From Artemia franciscana (taxonomy: Eukaryota > Arthropoda > Branchiopoda > Anostraca > Artemiidae), in the NCBI RefSeq assembly GCF_032884065.1, contig NC_088883.1, forward strand, positions 30,063,310 through 30,127,309: 64,000 nucleotides of DNA. Reading direction: 5' to 3'. The translations under genes were made by a program, and so were the position numbers. The notes beneath the pieces were generated by a model that made no database searches, was not told the origin of the DNA, and was given only the letters and a program-made list of their open reading frames with translations. Of the stretch, positions 2,865 to 63,131 are shown piece by piece (within the stretch, counting starts at the first letter, position 1; the number at the start of each line of letters is the position of its first letter).

Positions 2865-4810
2865 ATATTGACAATTGACATATTGACAATATTGACATAA
2901 ATGTCAATAATTAAATGACAACAACAATTTTAGTTGACAGCTATAAATTATAATAACGAGCTAAATATAATTTGGAGTAACACCAATTCAATTCAGCGGG
3001 AAGAAATAGTTAATTATCCCAGCATCTTAACAACACGCCTTAGTAGTAATAGCATTTGTAGTGCTTAGTAGTAGCAGAAGTAGTAGTAAGTCACGCTCAG
3101 AACTTTCTACGTTAAATGGTCTCGTCTGAGTCTTGAACGCCAAAAAAAAAAGAAAAAAAAAGGAAAACAAACTTTATACGAAAATGCAACTGGGCAGCAA
3201 AATAACATTTTACTCTTACAATGCATGATGCAAGAGCTGAAATACGGTCCATAGCATATCCCAGCAATTTTCATTTTAGCCGGCAAGTAAGTGAAGTTCC
3301 AACAAAGAATAATATACTTCAAGTCATAAAATAAATTCCACTGGAATTTTCATAAATAGCTGATTTGAGTTATGTAAGACTACTTATATGCCAAAGCATC
3401 GTTCACAAGCAGGCAAAAACGGAATTTCGTTTTTAAACAGAAGTTGTCTCGATAGCCATGAGTCTATATGTGTAATGTTGTGTGTAACATATGTGTAATG
3501 TTGCATGCATCTGAGCACCACGCAGGCAATTAAATATTTATTTACTTTTTTATTATTTATTTATTTATTATTATTTTAATTATTTATTATTTTATTATAT
3601 TTCTATCATATCATACTTATTATAATTATATTACATATGATATCCTATTGTTATATTACATAGATATTTTATTATAACATATAACTTTATTTTTATCATT
3701 ACTATTGTTTTTATAATTACCATTTATTATTTTATTGCTAATATAATTGATTATTATAATTATTAATTGGCTAATTGGTCTACAATTCTGTGTATACTAA
3801 TGGTTATACCCGTATTATAATCGAGACTCAAAAAGTTTCCGAAGCTTCTATGACCCCCCTTTCAATACGAAGCGGCTGAGTTGAAATAAAATAATTTGTA
3901 GTTCAAAAGAATTTTGAATAAAATAATCAATAATAATTGAAGGTATTTGACTCTTCATTTGGTCCTGGCTCCTATATTCCCGCTCCTTATTTATAAGACC
4001 AATCATGATAATCTTTTGATTTTTCTACTCTATAATTTAAAATATTTTCACAATTCCCAGCTTCGTCTGAAAATTTACTAATGATTTTAGAGACAATTTT
4101 AAATTTTTGGAAAACCTTATTAATTCATTCCAAGGAAAAATAAACTACAAACAGCTAATGCCTAACCTTAATTTTAGAGGCGTTTTATTTCGGAGGGGGA
4201 GATAGGGCACTTTCCCTGGATGCAAGAACTTTATGGCTTCAAAGTTTAAAATAAACAATCTAACGGTTATAATAATTTTGCAATTCTTAAATGTTATTTT
4301 TATAAAAATAAAGTAGAAGGCACCATTGGCAGTAAGTATCAGCAAATTGAATTGGTAATTTTCATTTTTTCCAATATTTCATCATTCCTTGAAAATAAAA
4401 GATTGCACACAGAAATTTAATAAATTTTAATAAAATTTTGTATTCAAGGTTCGTTAATAAATGAAAACTTTTGTTAAAATTTGGCCTAAAGCTTCTAAGG
4501 GGCAGGGGAGGGGTACTAATCAAAATTTTGCCCCGGGCACAAGAGGCGACCCGCTACTGCTTACTTCCTTGTCACATTCTTTATAGTATTTTCAAATACT
4601 TACAATCATCAAGAGAATCATCATCTTTTGGACTTTTTCTTCTCCTTCCAGTCAGCATTTCTCACTTTCCAACAAGCAGCAGAGCAGCGGGCAGCAAGAC
4701 AGTTGTTCCACGTTGGCGAAAGGTTCTCAGGCGCACTTAGGTGTAAGATAGTAGCCTGTAATGACTTTCATTTATTTACAAGCAACTTATACAAATTAAA
4801 TAAAAAGGTA
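2865..4810. other. No gene seen; AT-rich intergenic DNA
   Basis: No recognisable coding sequence. 3530-3790 is low-complexity DNA dominated by TATTTATTA-type runs. Scattered TAGTAG motifs at 3040-3090 may be decay of the RTE tail. Short open frames here show no recognisable domain. Confidence 0.6.
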
Positions 4811-4940
4811 TTTTAACTGAAAGTAGGGAGCGACATTAAAACTTGCTATACGAGCAGAAATTATTTCGTATATTAAAGGGGTTGTGGCCTCCTCAATGCC
4901 CCGCTCTTTACACTAAATTTTTATTGTTTTAAAAAGCGGA
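4811..4940 (+). repeat. Solo left arm of hairpin module A (composite element)
   Basis: Begins AACTGAAAGTAGGGAGCGAC and proceeds to CCCCGCTCTTTACACTAAA, the left arm of the hairpin that ends full composite copies. The right arm is absent. It lies about 25 bp before the next composite copy, so it is probably the leftover of an adjacent older copy. Confidence 0.7.
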
Positions 4941-4962: not shown

Positions 4963-6695
4963 TCAAACAGTTCGTGGTAACGAACTGTAGTAAGGAGCGA
5001 CCTGGCTCAATAGTAAACGAAACTCTAAAAAACGGAATTTTGATGCTAAAATATACATAAAAAAAAATCAGATTTTCATGCTGATTTTAAATATAAAAGT
5101 TTCATCAAATTTAGTCTTTGTCATCAAAAGTTACGAGCCTGAAAAAATTTGCCTTATTTTAGAAAATAGAGGAAAACACCCCCTAAAAGTCACAGAATCT
5201 TAACGAAAGTCATACCATCGCATTCGGCGCATCAGAGAACCCTATAGCAAAATTTTCAAGCTCCTATCTACAAAAATGTGGAATTTCATATTTTTTGCCA
5301 GAAGACAAATCACGGGTGTGTGTTTATTTGTTTGTTTGTTGTTTTTTTTTTCCTTTTCCCATGTGTCATCGTATCGACCAAGTGGTCCTAGAATGTCGCA
5401 AAAGGGCTCATTCTAACGGAAATGCAAAGTTATAGTGCCCTTTTTAAGTGACCAAAAAATTGGAGGGCACCCAGGCCCCCCCCCCCACGCTCATTTTTCC
5501 TCCAAAGTCAACAGATCAAAATTTTGAGATAGCCATTTTGTTCCGCATAGACAAAAACTATAATAACTATGTATTTGGGAATGACTTACTCCCCCACAGT
5601 CCCTGGGGGAGGGCCTGCAAGTTACAAACTTTGACCAATGTTTACATACAGTAATGGTTATTGGGAAGTGTACCGACGTTTTCAGGGGATTTTTTTGGTT
5701 TGGGTGTGGGGTTGAGGGGAGGGGGCTGAGTGGGAGGATCTTTCCTTGGAGGAATATTTCATGGAGGAAGACAAAATCAATGAAAAGGGCGCAGGATTTT
5801 CTAGCATTACTATTTAAAAAAAAAATGAAAATAAAAACATGAAAAAGTTTTTTGAAAATATAAACATGAAAATATAAACATGAAAAACATGAAAAAGTAA
5901 GGAGTAGCACTTTCTGATTCAGGAAGAATTGGGAGAATTTCAAAATTTCTTCCTGAAATTCTTCTTCCTGAATTCTTCTTCTTCTTCCTTGAAGTTCTTC
6001 CTGAAATTCAGGAAGAATTTCATTCTTAAAGAATTGGGACAAAACTTAAGATTTAGTGTGAAGAACGAGGTATTAACGAGGGGACAAACCCCCCTCTTAT
6101 ATATAATCAAAAATATAAGAAAATAAAAGTTTGTTACGTAAGTTAATTTTTAGTTAAGGTTTATTTTTACTAATTAAAAAGTTTGTTAAAAATTAAAAGC
6201 TCTAGTTGCCTGTTTAAGTAACCGAAAAATTGGAGGGCAACTAGGCCTCCTTCCCCACCCCTTATTTCTCAAAACCGTCCGATCAAAACTAAGAGAAAGC
6301 CATTTAGCAAAAAAAGAATTAATATGCAAATTTCATTTTAATAATTTATGTACGGAGAGCCAAAATCAAACATGCATCAATTCAAAAACGTTCAGAAATT
6401 AAATAAAAAAAAACTAGTTTTTTTAACTGAAAGTAAGGAGCGACATTAAAACTTAAAACGAACAGAAATTACTCCGTATATGAAATGGGTTGTCCCCTCC
6501 GCAATCCCTCGCTCTTTACGCTAAAGTTTGACTCTGCCACAATTCTACTTTTTAAAACAATTAAAACTTCAGCGTAAAGAGCGAGGGATTGCGGAGGGGA
6601 CAACCCATTTCATATACGGAGTAATTTCTGTTAGTTTTAAGCTTTAGTGTCGCTCCTTACTTTCAGTTAAAAAAAAACTAGTTTTTTTTATTTAA
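4963..6695 (+). mobile_element. Composite double-hairpin element, copy 1 (full length)
   Basis: Starts TCAAACAGTTCGTGGTAACG, whose CAGTTCGT/ACGAACTG halves form a terminal palindrome. It then runs through unit 1 (with CCCCCACAGTCC and GGTTATTGGGAAGTGTA), a degraded hairpin B (about 5835-6120), unit 2 (GGAGGGCAACTAGGCC, GGAGAGCCAAAATCAAA) and hairpin A. The hairpin B zone is disturbed by a local TTCTTCCTGAAATTC repeat (5921-6022). No conserved ORF is found, so it is non-autonomous. Family unknown. Confidence 0.8.
6411..6690. repeat. Hairpin module A of composite copy 1
   Basis: Near-perfect palindrome with arms of about 115 bp (6411-6530 and 6570-6690) around a ~40 bp loop. The left arm has GGTTGTCCCCTCCGCAATCC; the right arm carries its exact complement. 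Relative to the element, the loop is in the opposite orientation to that in copies at 50.6 and 58.6 kb. Confidence 0.85.
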
Positions 6696-7385
6696 TAGCG
6701 TAAAGAACGAGGCGTCGAGAAGGACGCCCGCTGAAGTAGATACTAACGCTTGGTGACTAAGGACCTAAGAGAGTCGAGGATAGATATGAAAACACAAACC
6801 CCAAAGTAAGTGGGATACATGAGATCTATAGGCAAAATTCATCATTTTCAGTCGCAACTAGAAGGGTACATGTTCTTCAGCAGGAGGTGGAGGCCGCCTA
6901 TTTTAGTTTTGGCCAGTATCACTGTTTGTCCTCAAATACATCAAAAATATAAAATAAATTAGTATGAATACGATCCAGTGTCCAAGACAAGCAAGAAGCC
7001 AGTGAATGGGCCCAATTTCAAGCCTTTAAAGCTCACATGATGTCAAATTACCCTTAGGGATCTCCTTGATGATTGAGTCAAGATTGACAGAAAATTATAA
7101 AATCAATAGACCACGAGTATTTGACTAGTCAAAACCTGGATAAGCAAAAAAATCAATATAAATTGAATTAATGCAAAGCATCAAGTACAATACTTTCACC
7201 CTAGGTTACTCCTTTAAAGTAGGCATACAACTTAAATTTTATGCAATAAGACTGAAATAAAGGAAAAAAGACAAGGAGGAGGTAAAAATTTAACGACCAC
7301 CTTATTTAAACAGTACAAACAAGATACCCATACAATAACACCCAGCAATAAAATAGCAAACCTTGATGATATTACATAAAAAGAC
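6696..7385. other. No gene seen between two opposed composite copies
   Basis: About 690 bp of AT-rich sequence separates the hairpin ends of copies 1 and 2, which face each other in a tail-to-tail arrangement. No domain, RNA gene or repeat unit was recognised. Confidence 0.5.
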
Positions 7386-9032
7386 GTTTTTTTTTAACTG
7401 AAAGTAAGGAGCGACATTAAAAATCAAAACTAACAGAAATTACGCCGTATATGAAAGGGGCTATTCCCTCTTCAACGCCTCGCTCTTTGCGCTAAAGTGA
7501 ATCTTTGTCTCAACTCTACTTCTTAAAACAGCAAAAACTTTAGCTTAAAGAGCAGGGCATTGAAGATGGAACAGCCCCTTTCATATAAGGGGTAATTTAT
7601 CTTTGTTTTAATTTTTAAAGTCGCTCCTTACCTTCAGTTAAAAAAAAAACTTGTTTTTTTTTATATTTAAATTCTGAACGTTTTTTAGTTAATCCATGTG
7701 ATTTCGGCTCTCCGCAGATGAATAATTAAAGCAAAATTTGCATATTTATTTATTTGGCTAAATGGCTTTCCCATAATTTTGATCGAATGATTTTGAGAAT
7801 AAAGGAGGGGGGAGGAGGACCAGTTGCCCTCCAATTCCTTGGATACTTAAGAGGCAAGTAGAACTTTTAGTTTTTTACGAAAGTTTTCATTAGTAAAAGA
7901 TATACGTAACTTAAGAATTAGCTTACGTAACAAACTTCTATATTCGTATGTTTTTATTACGTATATAAGAGGGTTCGCCCACTCGTCAATAACTCGCTCT
8001 TTACACTAAAGCTTAGATTCTGTCCCCTGAATCATAAAGGCCGTAGAATACATAGTTGAAATTACTAAAAATACTTTAGCGTAAAGTGCAAGGTATTAGG
8101 AGGTGAACCCCTTATCTGCGTAATATTTTCTCTTCGTTTTAAGTTTTAATGCTACTCCTTACTTCCAGTTGAAAAAAATTTCATATTTATTTTTTCATTG
8201 TTTTTTAAATAATGCTAGAAAATACTGCGCCCCCTCCATGGAAATCTTCTTCCCCCATGACAAATTTCTCCACGGAAAGTTTCCCTCACATAATCCCTTC
8301 TTCTCAACCCCTCCTTCCAACTAACAAATCCCCCTGAAAACGTCTGTACACTTCCCAATAACCATTGCTATATGCAAACAATGGTCAAAGTTTGTAACTT
8401 GCAGCCCATCCCATGGGGACTGTGGGGGAGTAAGTCGTCCCCAAAGGCATAGTTATATGGTTTTTCGACTATGCTGAATAAGACGGCAATCTCAGACTTT
8501 TGATCCGACGACTTTGGGAAAAAATGAGCGTGGGAGGGGGCCTAAATGCCCTTCAGTTTTTTTGGTCACTTATAAAGGGCACTAGAACTTTTCATTATCG
8601 TTCAAATGAGCCCTCTCGCAAAATTCTAGGACCACTGGGTCGATACGATCACCCCTGGAAGAAAACAAAAAAAAAAACACGCAACCGTGATTTGTCTTCG
8701 GGCAAAAAATACAAATTCCACATTTTTGTAGATTTTTGTAGGAACTTGTGCAGTAGGGTTTTCTGATACGCTGAATCTGATGATGTGATTTTTGTTATGA
8801 TTATATGATTTGGGAGGGGGTGTTTCCCCCTATTTTCTAAAATAGAACAAATTTTCTCAGGCTCGTAACTTATGATGGGTAAGACTAAACTTGATGAGTT
8901 ATATATTTAAAAGCAGCATTAAAATGCAATTCTTTTGACGTAACTAGTGGTATCAAAGTCCGATTTTTAGAGTTTTGGTTAGTGTTGAGCCGGGTCGCTC
9001 CTTGCTACAGTTCGTTACCACGAACTGTTTGA
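7386..9032 (-). mobile_element. Composite double-hairpin element, copy 2 (full length, reverse)
   Basis: Same parts as copy 1 in reverse order: hairpin A (7386-7665), unit 2, hairpin B (about 7960-8180), unit 1 and the terminal palindrome, ending CACGAACTGTTTGA. Hairpin A here has its own base pairs (left GGGGCTATTCCCTCTTCAAC, right largely complementary). No coding capacity recognised. Confidence 0.8.
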
Positions 9033-10928: not shown

Positions 10929-11469
10929 CTAAGCTATTATATATTCATCATATTTTGTTTCATTTCATTAGCATTAATCAAAATTCACTTCTCAAGTGTC
11001 TATTACATAACCGATAAGTACCCAATTTTCTTTTACCCGTCAGATTATGAAAACTTAAACTTGGTTTAAACTTAAACTTAAGTCAAGTCAAGGTTAATAT
11101 TTATATAATTTCAAACTAAATACTGGCTGAAACTTGGAACAAATATTGTATTAAAGAATAAACCAGAAAGCAGGTAGGAACTAATAAGCAACTCAACAAA
11201 CAGAAATTATCAATTATCACTTAAAACCATAACGCCATATTTAAATCTAATGATTGAAATCAAATATAGTTCTGGCTAGCAAGGAAATTGTTGTTTTTTT
11301 TTTACCTCCCAATGCCTGCAAAAATAAAAGTACCCACATATACATATATATTTTCCTAGTATATTAAGTTTCATGTTGTGCAGGCTTAATATTGATAAAT
11401 TACCAAGAAAGCTCTTGCGAGCACTGAAACAGGCTACCAGAGACTGCTCTATCCCTAGTAATAAGAAAA
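10929..11469. other. No gene seen
   Basis: AT-rich sequence without recognisable coding potential or repeat units. Confidence 0.5.
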
Positions 11470-12530
11470 AAACAAGTTTTTTAACTTTAAGTAAGCAGCG
11501 AGATTAAAACTTAAAACGAACAAAAATTACTCCGTATATGAAAGGGGCTGTTCCCTCCTCAACGCCCCACTCCTGAAGCTAAAGTTTGACTCTTTCTCTC
11601 AACTCTACTTTTTAAAACAGTAAAAAAAAAATTTACTTTAGCGTAAAATTTTAGTACTTTAGCGTAAACAGCGAGGTATTAGGAGGTGAACCCCTTATAT
11701 ACGTAATATTTTCTGTTCGTTTTAATTTTTAATGCTGCTCCTTACTTTCAGTTGAAAAAAAAAACTGTTTCATATTTATTTTTTCATTGTTCTTTAAAAA
11801 AATGCTAAAAAATCCTGCGCCCCCTTCATGGAAAATTTCTTCCCCTATGACAAATCCACCATGGAAAATTATCCCCGCATAACCCCCTCCCCTCAACACC
11901 TCCCCCAATCAAAAAATCCTCCTTAAAGCGTCTGTATACTTCCCAATAACCATTACTATGTGTAAACACCGGTCAAAGTTTGTAACTTGCAGCCCCTCCC
12001 ACGGGGACTGTGGGGGAGTAAGGGGTTCCAAAAACATACATTTTGGCTTATCGACTATTTTAAAAAAAAATGGCTATCTCAGCATTTTGATTCGGTGACT
12101 TTGGGAAAACATGAGCGTGGGAGGGGGCCTAAATGCCCTCCAATTTTTTGGTCACTTTAAAAGAGCACTAGAACTTCTAATTTCCGTTAGAATGGACCCT
12201 CACACGAAATTCTTGGACCACTGGATCTATACGATCACCCCTGAAAAAACAAACAAAAAAAAAACAACAACAAATAAACACGCTCCGTGATCTGTCTTGT
12301 GGCAAAAAATACAAAATTCCACATTTTTGTAGATAGGAGTTTGAAACTCCTATTGTAGGGTTCTCTATTACGCTGAATCTGATGGTGTGATTTTCGTGAA
12401 GATTCTATGACTTTTAAGGGGTGTTTTCCCCTATTTTCTAAAATAAGGCAAATTTTCTCAGGCTCATAACTTTTGGTGGGTAAGTTTAAATTTAATGAAA
12501 CTTATATATTTAAATTCAGCATTAAATGCT
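11470..12530 (-). mobile_element. Composite element copy 3, internally deleted and head-truncated (reverse)
   Basis: The left arm of hairpin A (from 11480) passes through the A loop, then switches at a duplicated CTTTAGCGTAAA into the right arm of hairpin B (AGCGAGGTATTAGGAGGTG). The A right arm, unit 2 and the B left arm are missing. Unit 1 follows to about 12530, where the copy stops without the CAGTTCG palindrome. Confidence 0.75.
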
Positions 12531-12902
12531 AAAAATAATTATTAATATTATACTTGCCAATTTCACATAAGCCTACGAAATTAATAACTATAAGTTCAAA
12601 GATAACCAATACATAAAATGACAAACAAAATATATTAATTGCAACAACAACAATGTTTCTTTTTCACAAACAAAAAAAGATGACAAAGCGTTAGCAAAAC
12701 TAGAATTAATATTAATATGTAATATTAATATGTAATATTAAATATTGCATATAATTAATATTAATATGTAATTATTAATATGTAGAACAGTGTATAGGTC
12801 ACAATTATCATTGACATTCTTACTAAAGCTACCTTACTGTATTACTAAAACTTACTTACTTACTAATACTGCCTTATTAACTACTAGCCTAATTGTATAA
12901 TT
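12531..12902. other. No gene seen; AT-rich with local ATTAATATGTAAT repeats
   Basis: 12705-12785 holds several near copies of ATTAATATGTAATATTAAT. Otherwise nothing recognised. Confidence 0.5.
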
Positions 12903-14554
12903 AAATAAAAAAACTAGTTTTTTTAACTGAAAGTAAGGAGCGACATTAAAACTTAAAACGAACAGAAATTACTCCGTGTATGAAAGGGACTGTTCCCTTC
13001 TCAACGCCCCGCTCTTTACGCTAAAGTTTTTTTAACTGTTTAATAAAGTAGAATTGAGAGAAAGAATCAAACTTTAGTGTAAAGAGCGGGGCGTTGAAAA
13101 GGGAACAGTTCTTTTCATACACGGAGTAATTTCTGTTTATTTAAAGTTTTAATGTCGCTCCTTACTTTCGGTTGAAAAACTATTTTTTTTAATTTAATTT
13201 CTGAACATTTTTTAATTAATGCATGTTTGATTTTGGCTCTCCGCACATAAAGTATTCAAATGATATTTGCATATTAATTCTTTTTTTTGGCTAAATAGCT
13301 TTCTCTTAGTTTTGATCATATGATTTTGAGAAATAAGGGATGGGGAAGAAGGCCTAGTTGCCCTCCAATTTTCCGATTACTTAAAAAGGCAACTAGAACT
13401 TTTAATTTTTAACGAACGTTTTTATTAGTAAAAAATAAACGTAACTTAAGAATTAACTTACATAACAAACTTCTATATTCTTATATTTTTATTATGTATA
13501 TTAGGGGGTTTGTCCCCTCCTTAATACCTCGCTCTTTATACTAAAGCTAAAGTTTTGTCCCAATTCTTTAAGAATGACACCTGAATCAGAAAGGCCGTAG
13601 AATAAATAGTTGTAATTACTAAAAGCACTTTAGCATAAAAAGTGAGGTATTTAGGAGGAGAAGAACCTCTCATATGCGTAATAATCTCTGTTTGTTTAAA
13701 GTTTTAATGCTATTCCTTACTTTCAATTGAAATAACTTTTTCATGTTTATTTTTATAGTAATGGTAGAAAATCCTGTCCCCTTTTCATTGAATTTCTCTT
13801 CCCCCATGGCATATTCCTACAAGGAAAGATCCTCCCATATAGCCCTCTCCCCTCAATCCCCCCCCAAAAAAAAACCCTCCTGAAAACGTCAGTACACTTC
13901 CCAATAACCATTACTGTATGTAAACACTGGTCAAAGTTTTTAACGTGCAGAACCTCCCCCGAGGACTGTGGGGGAGTAAGTCATCCCCAAAGACATAGTT
14001 ATTATGATTTTCGACTATGCTGAACAAAATGGATATCTCAAAACTTTGATCCGTTGACCTTGGCGAAAAAATGAGCGTGGGAGGAGGCCTAGGTGCCTTC
14101 CAATGTTTTTAGTCACTTAAAAAGGGCACTAGAACTTTTCATTTCTGTTAGAATGAGCCCTTTTGCGACATTCTAGGACCACTTGGTCGATACGATGATC
14201 CCTGGGAAAACAAAACAAATAAGCACGTACCTGTGATCTGTGTTTTGGCACAAAATGCGAAAATTTAGATAGGAGCTTGAAATTTTCGCAAAAGGGTTCT
14301 CTGATACGCTGAATGCTATGGTGTGATTTTCGGTAGGCTGTTTCCCGTTATTTTCCGAAATAAGACAAATTTTCTCAGGCTCGTAACTTTTGATGACAGA
14401 GACTAAATTTGATGAAACTTATAAATTTAAAATTAGCATGAAAATCTGATTCGTTTGATGTATCTTTTAGTATCAAAATTCCGTTTTTTTAGAGTTTCGT
14501 TTACTATTGAGCCGGGTCGCTCCTTACTACAGTTCGTTACCACGAACTGTTTGA
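12903..14554 (-). mobile_element. Composite double-hairpin element, copy 4 (full length, reverse)
   Basis: Complete: hairpin A (12905-13195), unit 2, hairpin B (about 13495-13740), unit 1, and the terminal palindrome ending CACGAACTGTTTGA. The A loop (AGTAGAATTGAGAGAAAG) reads in the opposite orientation to other reverse copies, i.e. it is flipped. The outer A stem carries CGTGTA/TACACG where others have CGTATA/TATACG. Confidence 0.8.
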
Positions 14555-16689: not shown

Positions 16690-17158
16690 CTTTGTCTGAA
16701 ATTAATTCGTACATGAAAGAGGCTGCTTCCTCATCAACGCCCCGCTCTTTACGCTAAAGTTTGACTCTTTCTCTCAATTCTTCTTTTTAAAACAGTAAAA
16801 AACTTTAGCGTAAAGAGCGGGGCGTTGATGAGGAAGCAGCCTCTTTCATATACGAAGTAATTTCTGGTCGTTTTAAGTTTTAATGTCGCTCCTTACTTTC
16901 AGTTAAAAAAACTTGTTTTTTTATTTAATTTCTGGACGTTTTTGAATCAATGCATGTTTTGATTTTGGCTCTCCGCAGAGGAATAATTAAAACAAAATTT
17001 GCATTTTTTTTTTTTTGGCTAAATGGCTATCCCATAATTTTGATCGAATGATTTTGAGAAAAAAAGAGCGGGGGAGGAAGCCTAGTTGCCCTCCATTCTT
17101 TTGGTTAATTAAAAAGGCAACTAGAATTTTTAATTTTTTACGAATATTTTTATTAGTA
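16690..17158 (-). mobile_element. Composite element copy 5 (reverse), cut by the assembly gap
   Basis: Hairpin A with a shortened outer left arm (16700-16915; the inner stem GAGGCTGCTTCCTCATCAAC matches both arms), then unit 2 up to the Ns. The rest is lost in, or collapsed into, the gap. Confidence 0.75.
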
Positions 17159-30290: not shown

Positions 30291-31799
30291 CCAAATGCTA
30301 TTCCCGATTGATTACATACTTATAGCAAGGGCTACTACCTTTTAATTAACTCTTATTACTTCGTTTTCTTACTTGCTGGTTCGTCTGTCTGTTGCACAAG
30401 TTTACGAGCAACTTTTCGATCACTTCCGAACATTCAGTTATTTCAAAATTTTATCAGTATATGCACTTTCAGTGACAGTACAAGAACCAAGTAAAAAAAA
30501 TTACTCATCTTGTAAGTTTTTAAACAAAACTGAGTTTTTTACTCATTTTTCATTATTTTAAATTGCTCTAATCATTTGGTTTTGATCCTGCTAATCATCT
30601 CGAGCCCTCCAGCTGATGTTTCACGTCTATTATCTCTGCTTTGATCCGTTCTTACTCGGATAACGCATCCTCAGATACGGCTGGATAACTAATTCTTTGG
30701 CTGGTGAAGGGAGGGACTAAGCCGTCTGTAAGACATGGCTTGGGCTGGTTGACCTTTGTCCAGAAAACTTAAAAATACATTGAGCTATTTTTTAATTGCT
30801 GTCAGTGAAATATTATGATCTTATCAAATACATAGTAGGATAAGAGCCACGGATAAGTAAGATAAGAGCCACGGCTGACCAAAAAAAGATTGAAGGTAGG
30901 TGCTCACTCTTTTAAAGCAAGAATTTAAAGTTACGCTAATTTTGTCCAGGATAATTCTCAGCTATGGAAATGAGGGTGATTGAAGACTATAAATTCAAAT
31001 ATCTGTCTCTAAAGTCGGTCATGGCAGCCTTCTTCCTAGGGCGTCTGGTCTAACGTTTGTGGAAAGAATCAAATATTCTGCACGGTGAGATAAGATATAA
31101 GAATCAAATGATGGGATCTTGTACGGCGCCGATTTTACGACATCTATGACTCGACGCAAAGTCGCCTTATAAAACTCATGGAGTTCCTCGTCTTTCATTT
31201 TTGAATATTTTAAGCAATAAAAGCACAGTAAATAGCTGTCTTACCTGATATTTAATGTTTTGATGGAATTTATGTCCTCTTGATTGAAAAACACCGAATG
31301 ATGGTTTAATTTTGAAACATGTATAAAAAAAAGCGGCGTGTCTGCCATTGGTCCTAGCCTGAGGGGCTTGTCTAGCTTAGGCTCAAACGAAAAATTTTGT
31401 TAAAAAGTTGAAATCAATGGAAGAAGATGCAAAAATAGATAGATCAAGCAAAATGCAACACAAAGAAAATAAAAACCAATTTGGAAAAACCATTTTGCAA
31501 AATGAATTTAGAAAAAAAAATTGTAAAAAGAAGTTATTTAAAGGAAAGTAAATAAAAAATCTAAAGTCCAACTGTCCAGTCATTACAAACAAAGAAATGA
31601 ATCTGCAAATGACAAACGGGTCTTTGGCCCGTTTAAAGGAAACGAAGAGAAAGAAATAAGACTAATATCTCACTCGTATAATATATTTGAGCTATTAAAA
31701 AATGTATTTTAGTTAGTCTGTTTCAGTTTTATGTGCATTTTTGTTTATAATATTAACTTTTGATTATTTTTTTTTACACCAAAATAATCTTTTTTTTTG
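30291..31799. other. No gene seen
   Basis: No ORF, RNA or repeat that I can name. Confidence 0.5.
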
Positions 31800-32965
31800 T
31801 GCCGATTTCAAATATATAAGTTTCATCAAGTTTAGGTTTACTCATCAAAAGTTACGAGCCTTAGAATATTTACCTTATTTTCGAAAAAACGGGGAAACAC
31901 CGCTTAAAAGTCATAGAATCACACCATCAGATTCAGCGCATCAGAGATGCGCTGAATCAGAGAGATCAGCGCATCAGAGAATCCTACTATTTATGTTTCA
32001 AGCTCCTATCTGCAAAATTGTGAAATTTTGTATTTTTTGCTAGAAGAAATATCATGGATGCATCTTTATTTATTTTTTTCCAGGGGATGATCGTGTTGAC
32101 CCAGTGGTCCTAGAATATCGCGAGAGGGCTCATTCGAATGGAGATTAAAACTTCTAGTTAACTTTTTAAGTGATCAAAAAGATTGGCGGGCAACTAGGCC
32201 CATCCCAAGCTCATTTTTTTCAAAATCATCCGATCATTATGTTGAGATAGCCATTTTGTTCAACATAGTCAAAAAATCTAATAGCTTTATCATTGAGGGT
32301 GATTTGCTCCCCCACAGTCCTCGGGGGAAGGGCTGCAATTTTGAACTCTGGCCATTATTTACATATAGTATTGGTTACTGGGAAGTATACGGACGTTTTC
32401 AGGGGGGGGGGGGATTTTTTCTGGTGTGGGGGTTGGGGGACAAGGTAACGTGGGAGAATTTTTCCATGGAAAAATTTTTCAAGGGGGGATTTTGAATTAA
32501 AATCAAGTAGTTGGGGGCATCAATCCATGGCTAATTGCAGAAAAAGCCAAGACAAATAGTCCGAATGAGTCAGAGGCAAATGTGGCATAAGCCCTTTTTA
32601 GGATTGTATAAAAATGATTTCATTTCACTTGTTGATTCCATCATCCAGCATTATTTTAAAAACGATCAGAAAAAAATTCAAGTGGAAGTAAGGAGCAACA
32701 TTAAAATTTAAAACAAACAGAAACTATTACATATATGCTCTTTTTGCTAAAGTTTTTTTAGTAATTTCTTAAGATCTTCTTATTCTTATTAAACTTTTAT
32801 CTATTCAGGGGGTCATTCTTAAAGAATTGGAACAAAATTTGAACTTTAGCATAAAGAGCAAAGTATTAACGAGGGGGCGAACCCCATCATATACGTAATA
32901 AAAATATGCGAATATAGCAGCTCTTTGCGTAAGTTAGTTTCCAAGTTATGTTTATTTGTTCCATC
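31800..32965 (+). mobile_element. Composite element copy 6, truncated at both ends
   Basis: Starts inside unit 1 (AAATATATAAGTTTCATCAA), with CCCCCACAGTCCTCGGGGGA near 32310, then foreign or rearranged sequence at 32500-32680. Hairpin B follows (32683-32910: GTAAGGAGCAACATTAAAAT ... TATTAACGAGGGGGCGAACC), then a few bases of unit 2. The head palindrome and hairpin A are absent. At 31915-31985 GCGCATCAGAGA is locally triplicated with an inverted middle. Confidence 0.75.
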
Positions 32966-45765: not shown

Positions 45766-46456
45766 CAACAAAATGTTGTTGGTGTAATTGAATGGAGCTT
45801 CCAGAATTTGCTCTCTATGCTCCAGGATCCTTTTTCTTTAACCTAGGAAAACCAAAAAAACCAACAACAAAATGTTGTTGGTGTAATTGAATGGAGCTTC
45901 CAGAATTTGCTCTCTATGCTCCAGGATCCTTTTTCTTTAACCTAGGAAAACCAAAAAAAAACAACAACAAAATGTTGTTGGTGTAATTGAATGGAGCTTC
46001 CAGAATTTGCTCTCTATGCTCCAGGATCCTTTTTCTTTAACCTAGGAAAACCAAAAAAACCAACAACAAAATGTTGTTGGTGTAATTGAATGGAGCTTCC
46101 AGAATTTGCTCTCTATGCTCCAGGATCCTTTTTCTTTAACCTAGGAAAACCAAAAAAACCAACAACAAAATGTTGTTGGTGTAATTGAATGGAGCTTCCA
46201 GAATTTGCTCTCTATGCTCCAGGATCCTTTTTCTTTAACCTAGGAAAACCAAAAAAACCAACAACAAAATGTTGTTGGTGTAATTGAATGGAGCTTCCAG
46301 AATTTGCTCTCTATGCTCCAGGATCCTTTTTCTTTAACCTAGGAAAACCAAAAAAACCAACAACAAAATGTTGTTGGTGTAATTGAATGGAGCTTCCAGA
46401 ATTTGCTCTCTATGCTCCAGGATCCTTTTTCTTTAACCTAGGAAAACCAAAAAAAC
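45766..46456 (+). repeat. 99 bp tandem satellite, 7 nearly identical units
   Basis: The marker GGTGTAATTG occurs at 45781, 45880, 45980, 46079, 46178, 46277 and 46376: steps of 99, 100, 99, 99, 99 and 99. Each unit holds the palindrome CCAACAACA-AAA-TGTTGTTGG. Units look identical except for one C/A change and a 1-base length change, so expansion is recent. Confidence 0.95.
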
Positions 46457-46499
46457 ACAACTAAAGATAAAACAAAAGGATATATATGGAAGAGTTGTC

Positions 46500-49065: not shown

Positions 49066-50756
49066 TCAAACAGATCGTGGTAACGAACTGTAGTAAGGAG
49101 CGACCCAGCTCAGTAGTAACCAAAACTCTAAAAAATGGAATTTTGATATCATTAGCTACATCAAAAGAATTGCATTTTAATACTGATTTTAAATATAAAA
49201 GTTTCATCAAGTTTAGTCTTACCCATCAAAAGTTACGAGCCTGCGAAAATTTGCGTTATTTTAGAAAATAGGGGGAAACACCTAAAAGTCATAGAATCTT
49301 AACAAAAATCACACCATTAGATTCAGCGTATCAGAGAACCCTACTGTAGAAGTTTCAACCTCCTATCTAAAAAAATGTGGAATTTTGTATTTTTTGCCAG
49401 AAGGCAGATCACGGATGCGTGTTTATTTGTTTGTTTGTTTGTTTTTTTCCCAGGGGCGATCATATCGACCCAGTTGTCCTAGAATGTTGCGAGAGGGCTC
49501 ATTCCAACGGAAATGAAAAGTTATAGTGCCCTTTTTAAGTGACTAAAAAATTGGAGGGCACCTAGGCACCCTCCCACGCTAATTATTTTCCCAAAGTCAA
49601 CGGATCAAAATTCTGAGATAGCCATTTTATTTAGCGTAGTCCAAAAACATTATAACTATGTCTTTGGGGACAACTTACTCCCCCACAGTCCCAGTGGGAG
49701 GGGAAACAAGTTACAAACTTTGACCAGTGCTCACATATAGTAATGGTTATTGGGAAGTGTATAGGCATTTTCAGGAGGATTTTTGGTTGGTGGGAGGGGT
49801 TGAGAGGAGTGGGGTATTCTGGGGGAACTTTTCATCGAGGAATTTGTCATGGGAGAAGAAAATTTCCATGAAGGGAGCGTAGGATTTACTAGCATTATTA
49901 AAAAAAAAAAACAATGAAAAAATAAATATGAAAAAGTTTTTTTCAGCGGGAAGTAAGGAGCAGCATTAAAACTCAAAACAAACAGAAATTATTACCCATA
50001 TGAGAGGCTCACCTCCTCCTAATACCTCGTTCTTTACGCTAAAGTATTTTTAGTAATTTCAACTATTTATTCTACGGCTTTTGTGATTCAGAGGTCATTC
50101 TTAATGAATTGGGACAAAATTTAAGCTTTAATGTAAAGAGCGAGGTACTGACGAGGGGGCGAACCCCTTAATATATGTAATAAAAACATGAGATTACAAA
50201 ATTTCTTTACGTAAGCTAATTTATGAGTTACGTATATCTTTTACTAATAAAAAGATTCATAAAATATTAAAAGTTCTAGTTGCCTTTTAAGTAACCAAAA
50301 AATCGGAGGGCAACTAGGCTTCCTCTCCCGCTCTTTTTTTCGCAAAATCATTCAATCAAAATTATGAGAAAGCCATTTAGCCAAAAAAAAATGTAAATTT
50401 CGTTTTAATTATTCCTCTGCGGAGAGCCAAAATCAAAACATGCATTGATTCAAAACGTTCAGAAATTAAATAAAAAAAACAAGTTTTTTTAACGGGAAGT
50501 AAGGGGCGACATTAAAAGTTAAAACGAACAGAAATTATTTCATATGTGAAAGGGCTGCTTCCTCATCAACGCCCCGCTCTTTACGCTAAAGTTTTTTACT
50601 GTTTTAAAAGTAGAAATAAGAGGAAGAGTCAAACTTTAGCGTAAAGAGCGGGGTGTTGATGAGAAAGCAGCCCTTTCATATACGAAGTAATTTCTGTTCG
50701 TTTTAAGTTTTAATGTCGCTCCTTACTTCCCGTTAAAAAAAACTTGTTTTTTTTTA
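49066..50756 (+). mobile_element. Composite double-hairpin element, copy 7 (full length)
   Basis: TCAAACAGATCGTGGTAACG (one change in the palindrome), unit 1 (49090-49930), hairpin B (49935-50195), unit 2 (50200-50460) and hairpin A (50465-50756, inner stem GGGCTGCTTCCTCATCAACG with two mismatches). Closely related to the copy at 57.1 kb. No coding capacity. Confidence 0.85.
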
Positions 50757-51030
50757 TTAATGAACTTAGATCCAGACACTGCCGGAAGGCTTCGAGATCA
50801 TTTTGTTGTAGATGTCTATCACCTCTGCTTTGTATTGGTAAGAATAGTTTAGCGTTATCTGCACAAATCTTTGTGGAACACTGAATAATCAAGGGTAAAA
50901 TCATTCATAAGAAATAAAATAGCACAATATGATATCTGGTACTAAAAATCACTAAAAATAAGCTAAAATCATTTTCATAAGGTATCATCTCTTGAGTTTA
51001 CCTATATATGGTATCAGTGATGGATTATAA

Positions 51031-52625: not shown

Positions 52626-53935
52626 GTTTCACAAATTTCGAATACCTTTGAAATTTTCGTTGTTTTACTGAAGGAGCATAGTTCATTATTCTCTAGACTT
52701 TGAAAATATTAGGAAATCTTTAATACGATAATGTGAGTGCTATTATTCAAAAATTTATTTCAAGAGCATTCAACTTAATTAAAAAGGAAGATTAGTTTGA
52801 ATGTTCAAGCACATCCTAGCTAAATTTTGTAAAGATTTGTGCTTCTTATTTAAAAAAACAAGATGGAAAAAAGGAATAATTTGTAAAAAGGTTATTTACT
52901 GGTAGAGCGCAAGCACCGATGTACACTACGTAAGTTAAAATCATCCAAAATATTTTTTGGTTTCCTTGGGGGAGTCACCCCTATTGATTTCCATGGAGAT
53001 AATTCTTGTAAATCAGGTTTGTTTGAAGAATTTACCTTTAAAACAATGGTAATGATAACCCTACAACCCAAACCCTCCTAACAAACATTCAAGGAGCATA
53101 TGTTTTTCAGGGATATATGTCATTCCCGACAATTTGTTCAATTAAACTTCAATGTAAGAAATCAGAACTGAAATAGGGAGTAGTAACCTTCATTCACATT
53201 TAAGAGAGCCTTTGGTAATGCAGCTTCTAGTAACAAACTATGAGTAAAGAGCAACCTTTGTCCATAGAAACTCTAACTCTAAAATATTCGAATCCAGCAT
53301 GGGCAAAAAAAGAAATTGTTCATGCTTATTTAGAATATGCAATGTGTATCAAAATCAAAGTTATTCACTGTAAGCATATAGACATTTGAATAGTTTTAGA
53401 AATATAAATTATACCTCCCGAAAAATTTGGTGTCATCATGAATAAAACTATGCGATAAAATCCCACATGCAGGAGGAATCTTAAAGCGCTATCTGAAAGA
53501 TATGGAGTTTCCCTTTTCTTATGTCGACGTTCACCGTTGAATGTCCGAAATGCCTTTTTTTCTCCTTGAATTTAGTCAGCGTTGCCAGTCAACTATTCCA
53601 GTTTAATTCAATGTTTGATGATAACAGATTAGGTTAGTTAGGCTTGGTGTTTAATCATTTCTGATATTTAAAACCTAATTTAATCTAACCTAACCTAAAT
53701 TAACATAATCTAACTTTAACTTTTATCAGCATAGCTTGCGTAAGGGTGAAAAAGCTGACTCACAAAATTAATTGAACCCAAACAGAAAAAAAGCTGGATT
53801 TCAGACATTCACCGGTCAATGTTGACATTAACCAGATTTGTATATATATATATATATATATATCCCTCCTCGCATTTAGGGATTTAGGGTAGTCCTAGGC
53901 ATATTGTGAAAAAAAGAACAGAAAAAAAGCTTTCT
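52626..53935. other. No gene seen
   Basis: 53630-53710 has repeated AACCTAA/TTAGGTTA motifs and 53838-53862 is (TA)n. No coding sequence recognised. Confidence 0.5.
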
Positions 53936-54200
53936 CAAATTTAAGCAGAGAGCGATGTTAAAACTTAAAACGAATTGAATAATTCCATATAATAGAGAGG
54001 CTACTCCTCCTCACCTCCGCTCTTTACGCTAGTCTTATAATGCTGCTTATTCCAATTCCAAGGCCCCTGTATTTTAGTAGTTGTTCTTAAGCAACTGGGA
54101 CAAAATGTAGAACTTTAGTGTAAAGGGCTGGGTCAAGGAGGGGGCAGTCCCCCTCATATACACAATGATTTGTGTTCGTGTAAGCTTAATATAGCTCTTT
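53936..54200 (+). repeat. Diverged solo hairpin of the composite family
   Basis: AAACTTAAAACGAATTGAAT, CTCCGCTCTTTACGCTAG, then ACTTTAGTGTAAAGGGCTGG and CTCATATACACAATGATTTG: recognisable left and right arms without units 1 or 2. Confidence 0.6.
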
Positions 54201-56439: not shown

Positions 56440-56600
56440 GACACAGGGACACAACTACAATGGCGCGTAACCAATATGGCGCGTAACGACTTATGCGCGC
56501 GAGGGGGGGCTTGGGGGTGGGGGCGCGAATCGCCCCCACAAACTAGGTATTGGGGTGGCGCGAAGCGCCTCCACCAACTAGGTATTGGGGTGGCGAAAAA
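56440..56600. repeat. GC-rich island with small hairpins and a 2-unit repeat
   Basis: GGGGGCGCGAATCGCCCCC and GGCGCGAAGCGCC are perfect or near-perfect hairpins, each followed by CAACTAGGTATTGGGGTGG or near variants. AATGGCGCGTAACCAATATG also repeats GGCGCGTAAC. Composition is unlike the surrounding DNA. Confidence 0.7.
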
Positions 56601-56848: not shown

Positions 56849-59129
56849 GATCATTCATCTATTTTATGACCAGAAATTTGACAAAACATTTCAAGAAAAA
56901 ATATGTGACGTCAACCACGTTTTTAGATCTGAATCATTATTGCATGGTGAAACTCCTGTGTAAATATTATTGTTTTATAAGAGTACTGGAATGCGCAAGG
57001 ATTGATATAATTCCTCAGTGTCTGGTGTTTTGTACCCTCCCCTCTCCCCAAAAAAGGCTTGAGTTATTCAAAAACATTTTTGTTTTATAGCTTGGACTTA
57101 CGCCAATCAAACAGTTCGTGGTAACGAACTGTAGTAAGGAGCGACCCGGCTCAATAGTAACCAAAACTCTAAAAATGGAATTTTGATACCAAGAGCTACA
57201 TCAAAAGAATCGCATTTTAATGCTGATTTTAAATATATAAGTCTAATCAAGTTTAGTCTTACCCATCAAAAGTTACGAGCATGAGAAAATTTGCGTTATT
57301 TTGGAAAATAGGGGGAAACGCCCCCTAGAAGTCATAGAATCTTAACGAAAATCACACCATCAGATTCAGCGTATTAGAGGACCCTATCGTAGAAGTTTCA
57401 AGCTCCTATCTACAAAAATGTGGAATTTTGTATTTTTTGCCAGAAGACAGATCACGGATGCGTGTTTATTTGTTTGTTTTTTCCCCAGGGGTGATCCTAT
57501 CGACCCAGTTGTCCTAGAACGTTCCGAGAGGGCTCATTCTAATGGAAATGAAAAGTTCTAGTGCCCTTTTTAAGTGACCAAAAAATTTGGAGGGCACCTA
57601 GGCCCCGTCCCACGCCAATTATTTTTCCAAGGTCAACGGATCAAAATTCTGATATAGCCATTTTATTCAGCGTAGTCGAAAAACTTTATAACTATGTCTT
57701 TGGGGATGACTTACTCCCCCACAGTCCCCATGGGAGGGGCTACAAGTTACAAACTTTGAACAGTGCTCACATATAGTAATGGTTATTGGGAAGTGTACAG
57801 GCGTTTTCAGGAGGATTTTTGGTTGGGGGAAGGGGTGAGAAGAGGGGGATATGCTGGGGGAACTCTTCATCGAGGAATTTGTCATGGGGAAAGAAAATTT
57901 CCATAAAGGAGCGCAGGATTTACTAGCGTTATTTAAAAAAAACAATGAAAAAATAAACATGAAAAAGTTTTTTCAGCTGGAAGTAAGGAGCAGCATTAAA
58001 ACTTAAAACGAACAGAAATTATTACCCATATAAGGGGCTCACCTCCTCCTAATACCTTGCTCTTTACGCTAAAGTATATTTAGTAATGCCAACTATTTAT
58101 TCTACGGCTTTTGTGATTCAGGGGTCATTCTTAATGAATTGGGACAAAATTTAAGATTTAGAGTAAAGAGAGAGGTACTGACGAGGGGTGAACCCTCTCA
58201 TATGTGTAATAAAAACATGAGAATAAAAAGTTCTTTACGTAAGCTAATTTATAAGTTACGTATATCTTTTACTAATATAAAGATTCGTAAAAAATTAAAA
58301 GTTCTAGTTGCCTTTTTAATTAACCAAAAATTGGAGGGCAATTAGGCTTCCTCCCCCGCTCTTTTTTCCCAAAATCATTCGATCAAAATTATGAGAAAGC
58401 CATTTAGCCAAAAAAAAAAAAAAAAATATGCAAATTTCGTTTTAATTATTCCTCTGCGGAGAGCCAAAATCAAAACATGCATTGATTCAAAAACGTTCAG
58501 AAATTATATAAAAAACAAGTTTTTACAACTGAAAGTAAGGAGCGACATTAAAACTTAAAACGAAGAGAATTTACTTCGTATATGAAAGGGGCTGCTTCCT
58601 CATCAACGCCCCGCTCTTTACGCTAAAGTTTTTTTTAAAGTTTAAAAAGGAGAGTTGAGAGAAAGAGTCAAACTTTAGCGTAAAGAGCGGGGCGTTGATG
58701 AGGAAGCAGCCCCTTTCATATATGAAGTAATTTCTGTTCGTTTTAAGTTTTAATGTCGATCCTTACTTTCAGTTGAAAAAACTTGTTTTTTTTATTATAT
58801 AATAATGTTAAAAAGACACAGGAAATAGGGAAACTCATTGGAGAAAATGGAAGAAGAAAAACTTCTAAGTGAACATTGAATTACATAGTAAGGACAAATG
58901 TTTCCATATTTAAATTAAAAAGTTAAATAAAATTAGTAATTACTTAAATCAAATTAACGAGCGCTTTCTTTTAAGAGCATTCCAATACTTTCATAAAACA
59001 ATAATATTTACACCGGAGTTTCGCCATGCAATAATGATTCAGATCTAAAAATGTGGTTGACGTCACATGTTTTTTCTTGAAATGTTTTGCCAAATTTCTG
59101 GTCTAAATTTGGTGCGATGATAAATAATC
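56849..59129. repeat. Inverted repeat arms (56849-56994 / 58977-59129) enclosing a composite copy
   Basis: GACCAGAAATTTGACAAAAC through ATATGTGACGTCAACCACGT to GAGTACTGGAATGC on the left recurs inverted on the right (GCATTCCAATACTTTCATAA ... GTGGTTGACGTCACATG). Arms are about 145 bp with a ~2 kb interior that includes composite copy 8. Confidence 0.8.
57107..58797 (+). mobile_element. Composite double-hairpin element, copy 8 (best full-length copy)
   Basis: Reference copy. TC at 57107, palindrome CAGTTCGT-GGTA-ACGAACTG at 57112-57131, unit 1 to about 57960, hairpin B 57961-58226, unit 2 to about 58505, hairpin A 58510-58797. Units 1 and 2 share a diverged module: GCCCTTTTTAAGTGACCAAA ... GATATAGCCATTTT versus GCCTTTTTAATTAACCAAAA ... 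GAGAAAGCCATTTAG. Hairpin A stem is essentially perfect through GGGGCTGCTTCCTCATCAAC. No ORF conserved among copies. Confidence 0.85.
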
Positions 59130-60758: not shown

Positions 60759-60968
60759 CAATCAAACGGTTCGTGGTAACGAACTGTAGTAAGGAGTGAC
60801 CCGGCTTAATAGTAACCGAAACTCTAAAAAATGGAATTTTGATACCAATAGTTACATCAAAAGCATCGCATTTTGACGCTGATTCTAAATATATAAGTTT
60901 TATCAAGTTTAGTTTCACTCATCAAAAGTTACGCTAAAGTTTCTATTGTTTAAAAAGTAAAGTTGAGG
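60759..60968 (+). mobile_element. Composite element copy 9, internally deleted
   Basis: Head (TCAAACGGTTCGTGGTAACG ... CTCATCAAAAGTTACG) is fused to a hairpin loop (TTACGCTAAAGTTTCTATTG ... AAAGTAAAGTTGAG). The join falls on the shared TTACG near 60929-60933, so about 1.4 kb is missing. It lies just upstream of the small heat shock exon. Confidence 0.75.
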
Positions 60969-62116: not shown

Positions 62117-62474
62117 AAATCGTCATTACCTCCCCGTGCTGGGTGTGGGTAATTTGCGCACCTGCTACCTTCCTAGGATCTGGTAGCCGTTTCTCGGGCT
62201 CTCCAGAATCGAACCCCAATTCCCCGTTACCCGTTGCAACCATGGTAGGTGCATAGCCTAACATCGAATTTGATAAAGCAGACATTTGAAAGACACGTTA
62301 CCGGACCGTGCAATCGGCTTATTCAGAGTCACCAAGAGACGAGCTGAAGCCCGATTTGTCTTGATCTAATAAAAACACTCCTTTCGTGAAGTCGGGGCTA
62401 TTGTGCATGTATTAGCCCTAGAGTTACTGCAGTTATCGAAGCAGGATATACTACGATCTAAGGAACCATAACTG
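62117..62474 (-). rRNA. Small-subunit (18S) rRNA fragment, diverged and incomplete
   Basis: The minus strand reads from CAGTTATGGTTCCTTAGATC through GCTAATACATGCA, TTTTATTAGATCAA, TTGGTGACTCTGAATAA, TTTCAAATGTCTGC, CTACCATGGTTGCAACGGGT, AACGGGGAATTGGGGTTCGA, GAGAAACGGCTACCA and GCGCAAATTACCCAC to CACGGGGAGGTAATGACGA. These are the conserved words of the first ~450 nt of eukaryotic 18S, in order. Changes in normally invariant places (GATCCTAGGAAGGTAGCAGG, CACCCAGCACGG) and missing flanking 18S on both sides mark it as a non-functional fragment or relic. No 5.8S, 28S or ITS seen. Confidence 0.85.
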
Positions 62475-63131
62475 GAAATGTCGGACCCTCTTTCAATAAA
62501 GCCTGGTTATGTGCCTGCATTAATATAGTTCATGTCTAGAAATTTTCTGCTATTTATAACCGATCAGTTTCTGATCAATTTAACACGTCAATAACTGATT
62601 AATTTATAGCAGATCAATTCTCTGCTATTTTGTCTCCTCTTTCTTCGATTTTAAGCGTCAGAATTGTTAAGAGATCGCAATAAGAGAAATGCAACTTGAA
62701 AAGGCTTTCTACTGTGTTGACCTCAGACAGCTTTGTACTAAAACGAGTTTTTTGTAATAATATCAAATTTAATAGGGGAACCACCTTTTCAAAGTAAAAA
62801 ATACGAATTAAGCAACTTCTATGTGAAAATAGCATTAATTCTATGGACCCTTGTTTTCAACCTGAGTGCCCCATAGCCCAAGGGCTAAGCAGTAGGCCTC
62901 TAGTGATAGATAATAATATCACCTTTCTACATTTTTCCGTCGTGATTGTTCAATAATTGTGTAGGAAGGTCAGTGGATCTTTCTAAGTTTAAGGCGAGGG
63001 GTGCCTGACACCTGAAAAGTGGATTTTGGCCCAAATTTTCTAAGTTTCAGATAAATATGAAACAAGGAGGGAAATACCCATTAGCTTGTCTTCACTCTGG
63101 GAAATTTTTTGAACCAAGTTTGCAAAATGTG
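62475..63131. other. No gene seen
   Basis: Unrecognised AT-rich sequence between the rRNA fragment and the duplicated segment. Confidence 0.5.

Follow-up and report, generated by a model that had tools for sequence, protein, structure and literature searches.

A repeated element with a terminal foldback in the 64-kb window

The stretch of DNA analysed here, called the window throughout, comprises 64,000 nucleotides of Artemia franciscana (C21:30063310-30127309) and carries many copies of an element whose reference copy we describe below (Table 1). BLASTN of 57107-58797, the interval delimited by an earlier note on this DNA, against the window gave 55 matches in both orientations and showed homology at all nine sites where that note had placed copies of one architecture. 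Both ends are present in five of the nine, while the other four are fragments, so that the claim of a single architecture stands for the five only. Comparison with pre-insertion sites of other copies moved the 3’ end of the reference copy from 58797 to 58802. Given that the ends are exact across copies, the sequence behaves as a mobile element rather than as a segmental duplication, as the earlier note had assumed. An internal insertion in the copy at 4963 was considered and rejected, as BLASTN shows a diverged stretch of similar length.

Table 1. Positions of the element, its parts, its copies in the window and the canonical Helitron copies
Feature	Position	Strand	Basis or remark
Full element copy (reference)	57107..58802	+	Host T follows at 58803; boundary from pre-insertion sites of other copies
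5’ terminal hairpin, 9-bp stem and 4-nt loop, directly 3’ of the TCAA start	57111..57132	+	Shuffle test
5’ subterminal inverted repeat, 26 nt inside the 5’ end	57133..57145	+	13-mer search
Unit 1 stretch, duplicated in unit 2	57546..57663	+	77% identity to 58292-58405
Hairpin B, internal foldback, older and decayed, approximate limits	57947..58206	+	BLASTN
Unit 2 stretch, duplicate of 57546-57663	58292..58405	+	BLASTN
Hairpin A, terminal foldback, arms about 125 nt	58510..58791	+	Folding; arm analysis; 41-copy alignment
3’ subterminal inverted repeat, one mismatch, about 35 nt inside the 3’ end	58755..58767	-	13-mer search; other copies too
3’ terminus: short A-run/T-run palindrome, then ATATAA in the reference copy	58776..58802	+	
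Full copy, 90% identical	49066..50760	+	3’ end exact to within a few bases
Copy with both ends, diverged stretch near 5854-6019	4963..6695	+	Sits inside hairpin A of an older copy
Full copy, 83%	7372..9032	-	
Full copy, 80%	12901..14554	-	Hairpin A loop inverted relative to the 57107 copy
Copy without 5’ end	11459..12526	-	
3’ fragment	16698..17158	-	
Diverged body fragment without ends, 71-75% identical	31775..32955	+	
5’ head fragment, 172 nt, head only	60762..60933	+	
Further piece, 69%	53907..54125		BLASTN
Further piece, part of a hairpin A	4794..4929		BLASTN
Autonomous canonical Helitron copy	L065 2063-7721		
Autonomous canonical Helitron copy	L066 2013-7670		

The element begins TCAAACAG, has the head TCAAACAGTTCGTGG and starts with TCAA in 46 of 46 heads; how the T residues at its edges are to be divided between element and host is ambiguous. 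Its tail has the form GTCGCTCC...TTATTTAA, and the commonest tail reads GTCGCTCCTTACTTTCAGTT(A/G)AAAAAACTTGTTTTTTTTATTTAA. Among the 49 tails parsed with a search pattern that allowed few, AT-rich end forms, 38 end in ATTTAA, the others being variants such as ATATAA and ATTTAT, and none ends in CTRR, a count to be read with the AT-rich pattern in mind; unfiltered tails were also inspected. The head palindrome and the two hairpins that the earlier note had described are real. The head hairpin has a z score of -3.6 (1 of 200 shuffles as good) and hairpin A a folding energy of -138 kcal/mol versus -26.9 for shuffles (z -31; 0 of 200 as good), and the left arm of the decayed hairpin B shares 77-81% identity with the hairpin A arms. 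An A-run/T-run palindrome lies a few nucleotides from the 3’ end in many copies and is weak in the reference copy (z -0.76; 43 of 200 shuffles as good); canonical Helitrons carry a hairpin of 16-20 nt placed 10-12 nt before their 3’ end.

Terminal inverted repeats are absent from the extreme ends, which read TCAAACAG and ATTTAA, and both foldback arms lie at the 3’ end. The earlier statement that there is no classical pair of terminal inverted repeats is therefore right for the very ends, but a 13-nt subterminal inverted repeat is common to both: the sequence AGTAAGGAGCGAC near the head recurs inverted, with one mismatch, near the tail. Allowing at most one mismatch, we found 19 matches to it in the window versus 0.02 expected, and it is visible in the fetched copies as well. 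Its length falls within the 12-15 bp of the asymmetric subterminal repeats of Helitron2, Helentron and HINE elements.

Examination of coding potential revealed no transposase, in agreement with the earlier note: the reference copy holds no stop-to-stop frame of 150 amino acids. Twelve frames of that size occur in the window, of which 10 were scanned; four encode reverse transcriptase, all outside element copies, and the one scanned frame that lies inside a copy (5494-6045) had no match. ARAGORN with the bacterial code found no tRNA in the window, no Rfam family was detected in the element, and the SINE traits looked for (an RNA gene head, target duplication) were not found in it.

The resemblance of the hairpin B arm to the hairpin A arms, the partial repetition of unit 1 in unit 2 and the existence of shorter versions suggest that an older head-unit-hairpin monomer gave rise to the present form as its dimer. 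In the shorter versions, the sequence passes from about position 500 to 1186 (locus L095), from 925 to 1316 (L070) or from 926 to 1141 (L079).

The element is present in thousands of copies

Searching the genome for further copies, as the earlier note had proposed, revealed 12,962 occurrences of the exact 51-nt head (6,431 and 6,531) in 1,270,528,402 bases on 6,468 contigs, while a reversed-pattern control gave 0. A genome-wide similarity search returned 22,534 candidates, of which 40 were scored. We also drew a sample by head only, taking 20 of the first 21 listed head positions, all on C1, with one skipped (the C1 sample). Element sequence follows the head in 20 of these 20, and in 17 the sequence fetched also aligns to the 3’ terminal part of the query, at or past position 1686, the exceptions being L076, L080 and L086. 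The Artemia franciscana genome paper reports an assembly of 1.27 Gb with a GC content of 34.71% and 21 chromosome-scale scaffolds and gives 8.81% for Helitrons, and the part of it available to us describes no Helitron families (PMC11492255). A search of viral contigs with short exact strings gave 0 matches, and the Helitron Rep domain was detected in these contigs at one weak locus. DNA strings of the element were not found in literature text, and our literature search found no work on non-autonomous Helitrons of Artemia.

Insertion next to T and upstream of an AAG motif

To define the insertion site we joined the flanks of individual copies and compared them with uninterrupted relatives among the fetched sequences. 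The search for empty sites that the earlier note had suggested yielded such relatives for 6 of 26 joined flank pairs (L061, L017, L019, L020, L022 and W_4962, the last being the window copy at 4963, which is inserted in hairpin A of an older copy). In each of the six pairs the joined flanks are about one base shorter than the relative. The joined flanks of L061 (three relatives) and L017 (one relative) lack a T, as do those of W_4962 when set against most of its relatives. In L022 the missing base is C and in L019 G or A, deviations that we put down to divergence of the relatives; L020, which lies in a diverged family member, is too noisy to read. None of these six sites, one of them noisy, shows a target duplication of two or more bases, in keeping with the earlier note, which had seen no obvious one; a one-base duplication of T is indistinguishable from none. 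The base 5’ of the element is A in 29, T in 14 and G in 2 of 45 copies (25 non-composite sites and 20 sites of the C1 sample, heads without a parsed tail being left out). Thus, T lies 3’ of the element, yet A is commoner than T on its 5’ side. Canonical Helitrons insert between A and T, and Helitron2, Helentron and HINE elements in TT or T-rich sequence, in both cases with no target duplication; the element agrees with the canonical rule as a preference. Together, the data show insertion after A or T and before T, with any duplication limited to a single base. The region C4:46806000-46806500 was considered as a further pre-insertion site and rejected, its left side being unrelated. As a separate observation, the L061 insertion lies in a repeat that is also present three times in the window.

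The same sites bear on whether the long hairpin could be the functional inverted repeat of a foldback or MITE-type cut-and-paste element. A long terminal foldback and inverted repeats are indeed present; however, both foldback arms sit at one end and the other end is different, and the pre-insertion sites lack a target duplication of two or more bases, so that we regard this alternative as very improbable.

Inspection of the 3’ flanks revealed a motif downstream of the junction. With the host T taken as +1, AAG occurs within +5 to +16 in 39 of 49 distinct 3’ flanks versus 20.4% of controls, namely 1,677 A/T|T positions that lie farther from the junction within these flanks (P about 1e-18 in a binomial test, a post hoc value, the motif having first been spotted by eye in the first batch). 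These 49 sites include three window copies and L063, a duplicate of the 57107 locus, and 10 of 59 sites had been removed beforehand as internal pseudo-ends (hairpin B ends or similar). AAAG is present in the same zone in 25 of 49 flanks versus 7.2%, and matches of the A(A/C)AG type place their G at +9 to +14 in 36 of 49, with none found in 10. In the C1 sample, which was fetched later, AAG was found in 11 of 14 flanks versus 21.4% (P 8e-6), the misses being L071, L077 and L088. AAG is already there in sequences without the insertion, for instance in the relatives of L061, indicating that the motif is a property of the target and is not brought in by the element.

A truncated and a full copy move as one unit

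Analysis of the sequences upstream of the head revealed the same 400 nt left of the head in eight loci (L045, L049, L050, L053 and L055-L058) of the 31 in which a script found the head, out of 36 fetched, while the right flanks of these eight are all different. In L002, L006 and L007, for which a longer left flank is available, homology starts exactly at an upstream head and extends over a 3’-truncated copy (positions 1-811), an intervening stretch of other sequence about 340 nt long and then a full copy, at whose 3’ end it stops. The 3’-truncated copy and the full copy were thus mobilised as one unit. Homology that begins with the first 5’ end and ceases at the first functional 3’ end is the outcome expected of 3’ read-through. 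In the sections of the literature available to us, 3’ read-through is described as capturing flanks in Helraiser (PMC4778049), and Helitron tandem copies with 3’-truncated inner members are on record (PMC7492417). Such read-through is typical of rolling-circle transposition, but a compound cut-and-paste element could also produce a composite of this kind.

The arms of hairpin A are more alike within copies than between them

To characterize hairpin A we compared its inner and terminal arms within and between copies. An arm pair was present in 55 of 61 stretches examined, and 54 of these could be oriented (L019 was dropped). The two arms of the same copy are 96.4% identical (n=54), whereas between copies identity is 92.8% for inner with inner arms, 92.7% for terminal with terminal arms and 92.7% for inner with terminal arms; none of 10,000 permutations reached the within-copy value. 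An arm is closer to its own partner than to most other copies’ partner arms in 46 of 54 copies, the opposite holding in 8. Leaving out nine copies that stem from duplications and the composite gave 96.5% versus 92.3% (n=45; 0 of 10,000), and the C1 sample alone gave 96.0% within versus 90.7% between copies (n=16; 0 of 10,000). A single split of the arms followed by drift would not leave them closer within than between copies.

The internal direct duplication served as a control, an imperfect one given that its two parts were less similar than the arms from the outset. It showed 81.4% identity within versus 81.9% between copies, with 4,993 of 5,000 permutations at or above the within-copy value (n=49), and comparison between copies gave 94.5% for unit 1 with unit 1 and 92.6% for unit 2 with unit 2 (n=49). 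This is the pattern of no exchange. Arm divergence rises with mean body divergence (Spearman 0.51, n=55; the P of 6e-5 is too small because copies are related by descent), as expected if the arms were equalised around insertion and then drifted. An inverted loop between the arms marks a single clade of 10 of the 54 copies and requires one change on the body tree; the loop has therefore turned over at least once, but rarely, and a flip-flop of the loop at every transposition was rejected on the same grounds.

The arms look as if they had been made identical around the time of the jump. One way in which this might come about is that hairpin A folds on a displaced single strand and its mismatches are repaired, so that new insertions start with perfectly matching arms; we put this forward tentatively and think it rather less probable than its opposite. 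A reading to which we give nearly an even chance is that within-copy identity reflects ordinary chromosomal gene conversion or assembly polishing and is silent on transposition. Inverted arms with a spacing of about 36 nt lend themselves well to gene conversion, and the inverted-loop clade is the outcome expected of recombination between arms. Pilon polishing was used for the assembly, according to the part of the genome paper available to us (PMC11492255); it could draw arms together, and the direct duplicates of our control, only 81% alike, would not be affected likewise. Against conversion, arm divergence grows with body divergence, so that old copies are not kept identical, and the single change needed for the loop inversion makes crossing-over between arms look rare.

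Rolling-circle proteins in the genome and the ends of their elements

The search for an autonomous relative that shares both ends, also proposed in the earlier note, found none, bearing in mind that the Helentron sequence compared stops short of the Helentron’s own ends. Searching with the PF14214 profile gave 7,436 candidates, of which 150 were scored, all at 197-205 bits, and many have open frames of more than 1,500 amino acids. The 20 matches whose DNA was compared align as one canonical Helitron family. Two copies of this family, L065 and L066, are 99.9% identical over 5.66 kb and carry a 1688-aa frame whose protein matches Helraiser (PDB 7lcc) at 3.4e-266. The 3’ end of this Helitron, the one of its two ends that could be delimited, consists of a GC-rich hairpin and AACAGCTAG (CTAG) before T.

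The abundance of this canonical, Helraiser-like Helitron with its long intact frames, together with the TC start and the A|T preference that our element has in common with Helraiser, could mean that the element is a non-autonomous derivative cross-mobilised by it. The ends speak against this: the CTAG and GC-rich hairpin have nothing in common with the element tail, neither the head nor the tail of the element is present in L065 or L066, and no element head within five mismatches occurs in the 1.5 kb on either side of the 20 Rep matches. We therefore consider cross-mobilisation unlikely.

Among five PF08646 candidates there was one match, which we take to be the host RPA gene, and this search showed no RPA-bearing Helentron. 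PF20209 gave 47 matches, including a Helentron-type Rep with an RGSPH motif and RVEFQQRGSPHIHMFI in a 2,446-aa open frame with UCH, DUF6570 and Helitron_like_N domains; RVEFQQRGSPHIHMFI fits the diagnostic S given in the part of PMC4067079 available to us. A reversed copy of the element lies 1 kb upstream of this ORF (L095) and is common to four Helentron copies. It was considered as a Helentron terminus and rejected: homology in the four Helentron copies continues past its tail, which marks it as a nested passenger. No recognisable end is present in the final 285 nt of contig C4112.

A Helentron such as the one encoding the RGSPH-type Rep might nevertheless move the element, which would then be a strict HINE or DINE-1. 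The 13-nt subterminal inverted repeat, the 5’ hairpin, the absence of duplication beyond one base and the T at the 3’ side fit this assignment, as does the presence in the genome of a Rep with DUF6570 and Helitron_like_N domains. On the other hand, the 5’ subterminal repeat lies 26 nt inside the element, whereas in mite HINEs it is found 2-4 nt from the 5’ end (PMC4067079, from the text available), and the base 5’ of the element is more often A than T. On balance, we hold a strict HINE to be possible, at somewhat less than even odds.

A Helitron-like element and how it may move

Taken together, we consider the sequence a non-autonomous rolling-circle transposon of Artemia franciscana that is Helitron-like and closest to Helitron2/HINE, with a probability of about 0.82. 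The earlier note could place the element in no superfamily; its ends, its insertion and its mobilisation as a composite now place it with the rolling-circle elements. The placement rests on the TC start, the 5’ hairpin, the subterminal repeat, insertion before T and the mobilised tandem with a 3’-truncated member. The element thus appears to work like a Helitron2-type rolling-circle element and not to be a strict Helitron2 or HINE, since it lacks the CTRR end of canonical Helitrons, carries its 5’ repeat 26 nt inside and has no autonomous partner that we found. Several points weigh against the rolling-circle reading: there is no autonomous relative with these ends, and the abundant Helitron with the 1688-aa frame ends in CTAG without them; the 3’ end is TTAA instead of CTRR and the small 3’ palindrome is weak; and the homogenisation of the arms is possibly gene conversion or in part an artefact of short-read polishing with Pilon.

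If the element moves as a rolling-circle transposon, a Rep-helicase supplied in trans would nick at the 5’ TC end, and one strand would be peeled off and copied until the 3’ terminator (subterminal repeat, palindrome and TTAA), presumably through a single-stranded intermediate. This strand would be integrated at an A|T or T|T site with AAG shortly downstream. Hairpin A may fold on the displaced strand and have its mismatches repaired, which would give a new copy with identical arms.

The family has at least 12,962 heads in Artemia franciscana, and we now know its ends, its target rule and its capture behaviour closely enough to put them to the test. If the arms are indeed reset at each jump, they would date every insertion much as LTR pairs do, and thousands of dated copies would preserve in the genome a trace of the single-stranded intermediate postulated for Helitrons. 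The downstream AAG is a testable target rule that is not described in the available text of the Helitron papers cited. The terminal foldback with arms of about 125 bp, the arm identity within copies and the downstream AAG target motif look unusual. Neither this element nor arm homogenisation nor an AAG target downstream of the insertion is described in the parts available to us of PMC11492255, PMC4067079, PMC7492417, PMC5148889, PMC4778049 and PMC6544945.

Comparison with known systems

The comparisons that follow draw on those portions of the cited papers that were accessible. Helitron2 elements carry a hairpin at each end, and their inverted repeat is asymmetric, with its 3’ partner about 20-40 bp from the end (PMC5148889). 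FoHeli1/2, the Helitron2 elements of Fusarium oxysporum, resemble the Artemia element in their TC start and 5’ hairpin, in an inverted repeat of about 12 bp with its 3’ partner tens of bases inside, and in an AT-rich 3’ end, insertion beside T and no target duplication. Unlike it, they encode a Rep-helicase, are 5-6 kb long and carry the 5’ repeat within the terminal hairpin, and neither a 125-bp foldback nor a downstream AAG motif is described for them in the text available (PMC5148889).

HINE/DINE-1 elements are likewise non-coding and of high copy number, with subterminal inverted repeats and palindromes, no target duplication and T at the 3’ side, whereas the Artemia element has internal foldbacks in place of a satellite array and A more often than T on its 5’ side (PMC4067079, PMC7492417). 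Helraiser shares with it the 5’-TC, insertion at A|T with TT among the alternatives, the absence of target duplication and 3’ read-through capture, and differs in its 3’ CTAG with a 19-bp palindrome; its flanks are AT-rich, most strongly at the 3’ side, and the accessible sections describe no AAG motif there (PMC4778049). The canonical Helitron of the same host (L065/L066) has a rolling-circle Rep-helicase and no termini in common with the element.

Genomic setting of the element and a possible mosaic copy

The copy at 57107 is flanked by inverted repeats (56863-56994 and 58977-59107) that are 93% identical, suggesting that it may be nested within another foldback-like element. A second copy of this locus (L063) lies on the same contig, C21, about 106 kb away. 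The hairpin arms of one copy, L022, are similar to those of the loop-inverted group of L070, L073 and L079, while its body and loop orientation assign it to the other group; L022 is possibly a mosaic copy of the element. Other features of the window are listed in the table; the reverse transcriptase pieces probably come from LINE-like elements, and the arrays with units of ~30 bp look related to each other.

Other features in the window
Feature	Position	Strand	Details
Eukaryotic small-subunit rRNA fragment	62123-62527	-	168 bits
Reverse transcriptase (RVT_1) piece	20733-21203
Reverse transcriptase (RVT_1) piece	38315-40008
Reverse transcriptase (RVT_1) piece	43685-44434
Satellite-like array	45756-46461		99-bp unit, 7.1 copies, 99% match
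Satellite-like higher-order array	34789-35731		348-bp
Long satellite-like array	17796-18908		unit ~30 bp
Long satellite-like array	22070-24376		unit ~30 bp

Helentron-type gene and canonical Helitron in the same genome

Contig C4112 (loci L095/L090) carries a Helentron-type gene. Its single open frame has a ubiquitin-hydrolase (UCH) domain at the N terminus; it also contains a charged repeat region, a DUF6570 domain and a Helitron_like_N domain with the Rep motif RGSPH. A Helraiser-like canonical Helitron is very abundant in the genome (L065, 2063-7721; L066, 2013-7670; L025-L044), and frames of >1,500 aa are intact in many of its copies. Given that L065 and L066 are 99.9% identical across 5.66 kb, this Helitron was probably active recently. 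Within the window, tandem GGCGCGAAGCGCC sequence at 56522-56595 resembles the 3' hairpin of the canonical Helitron.
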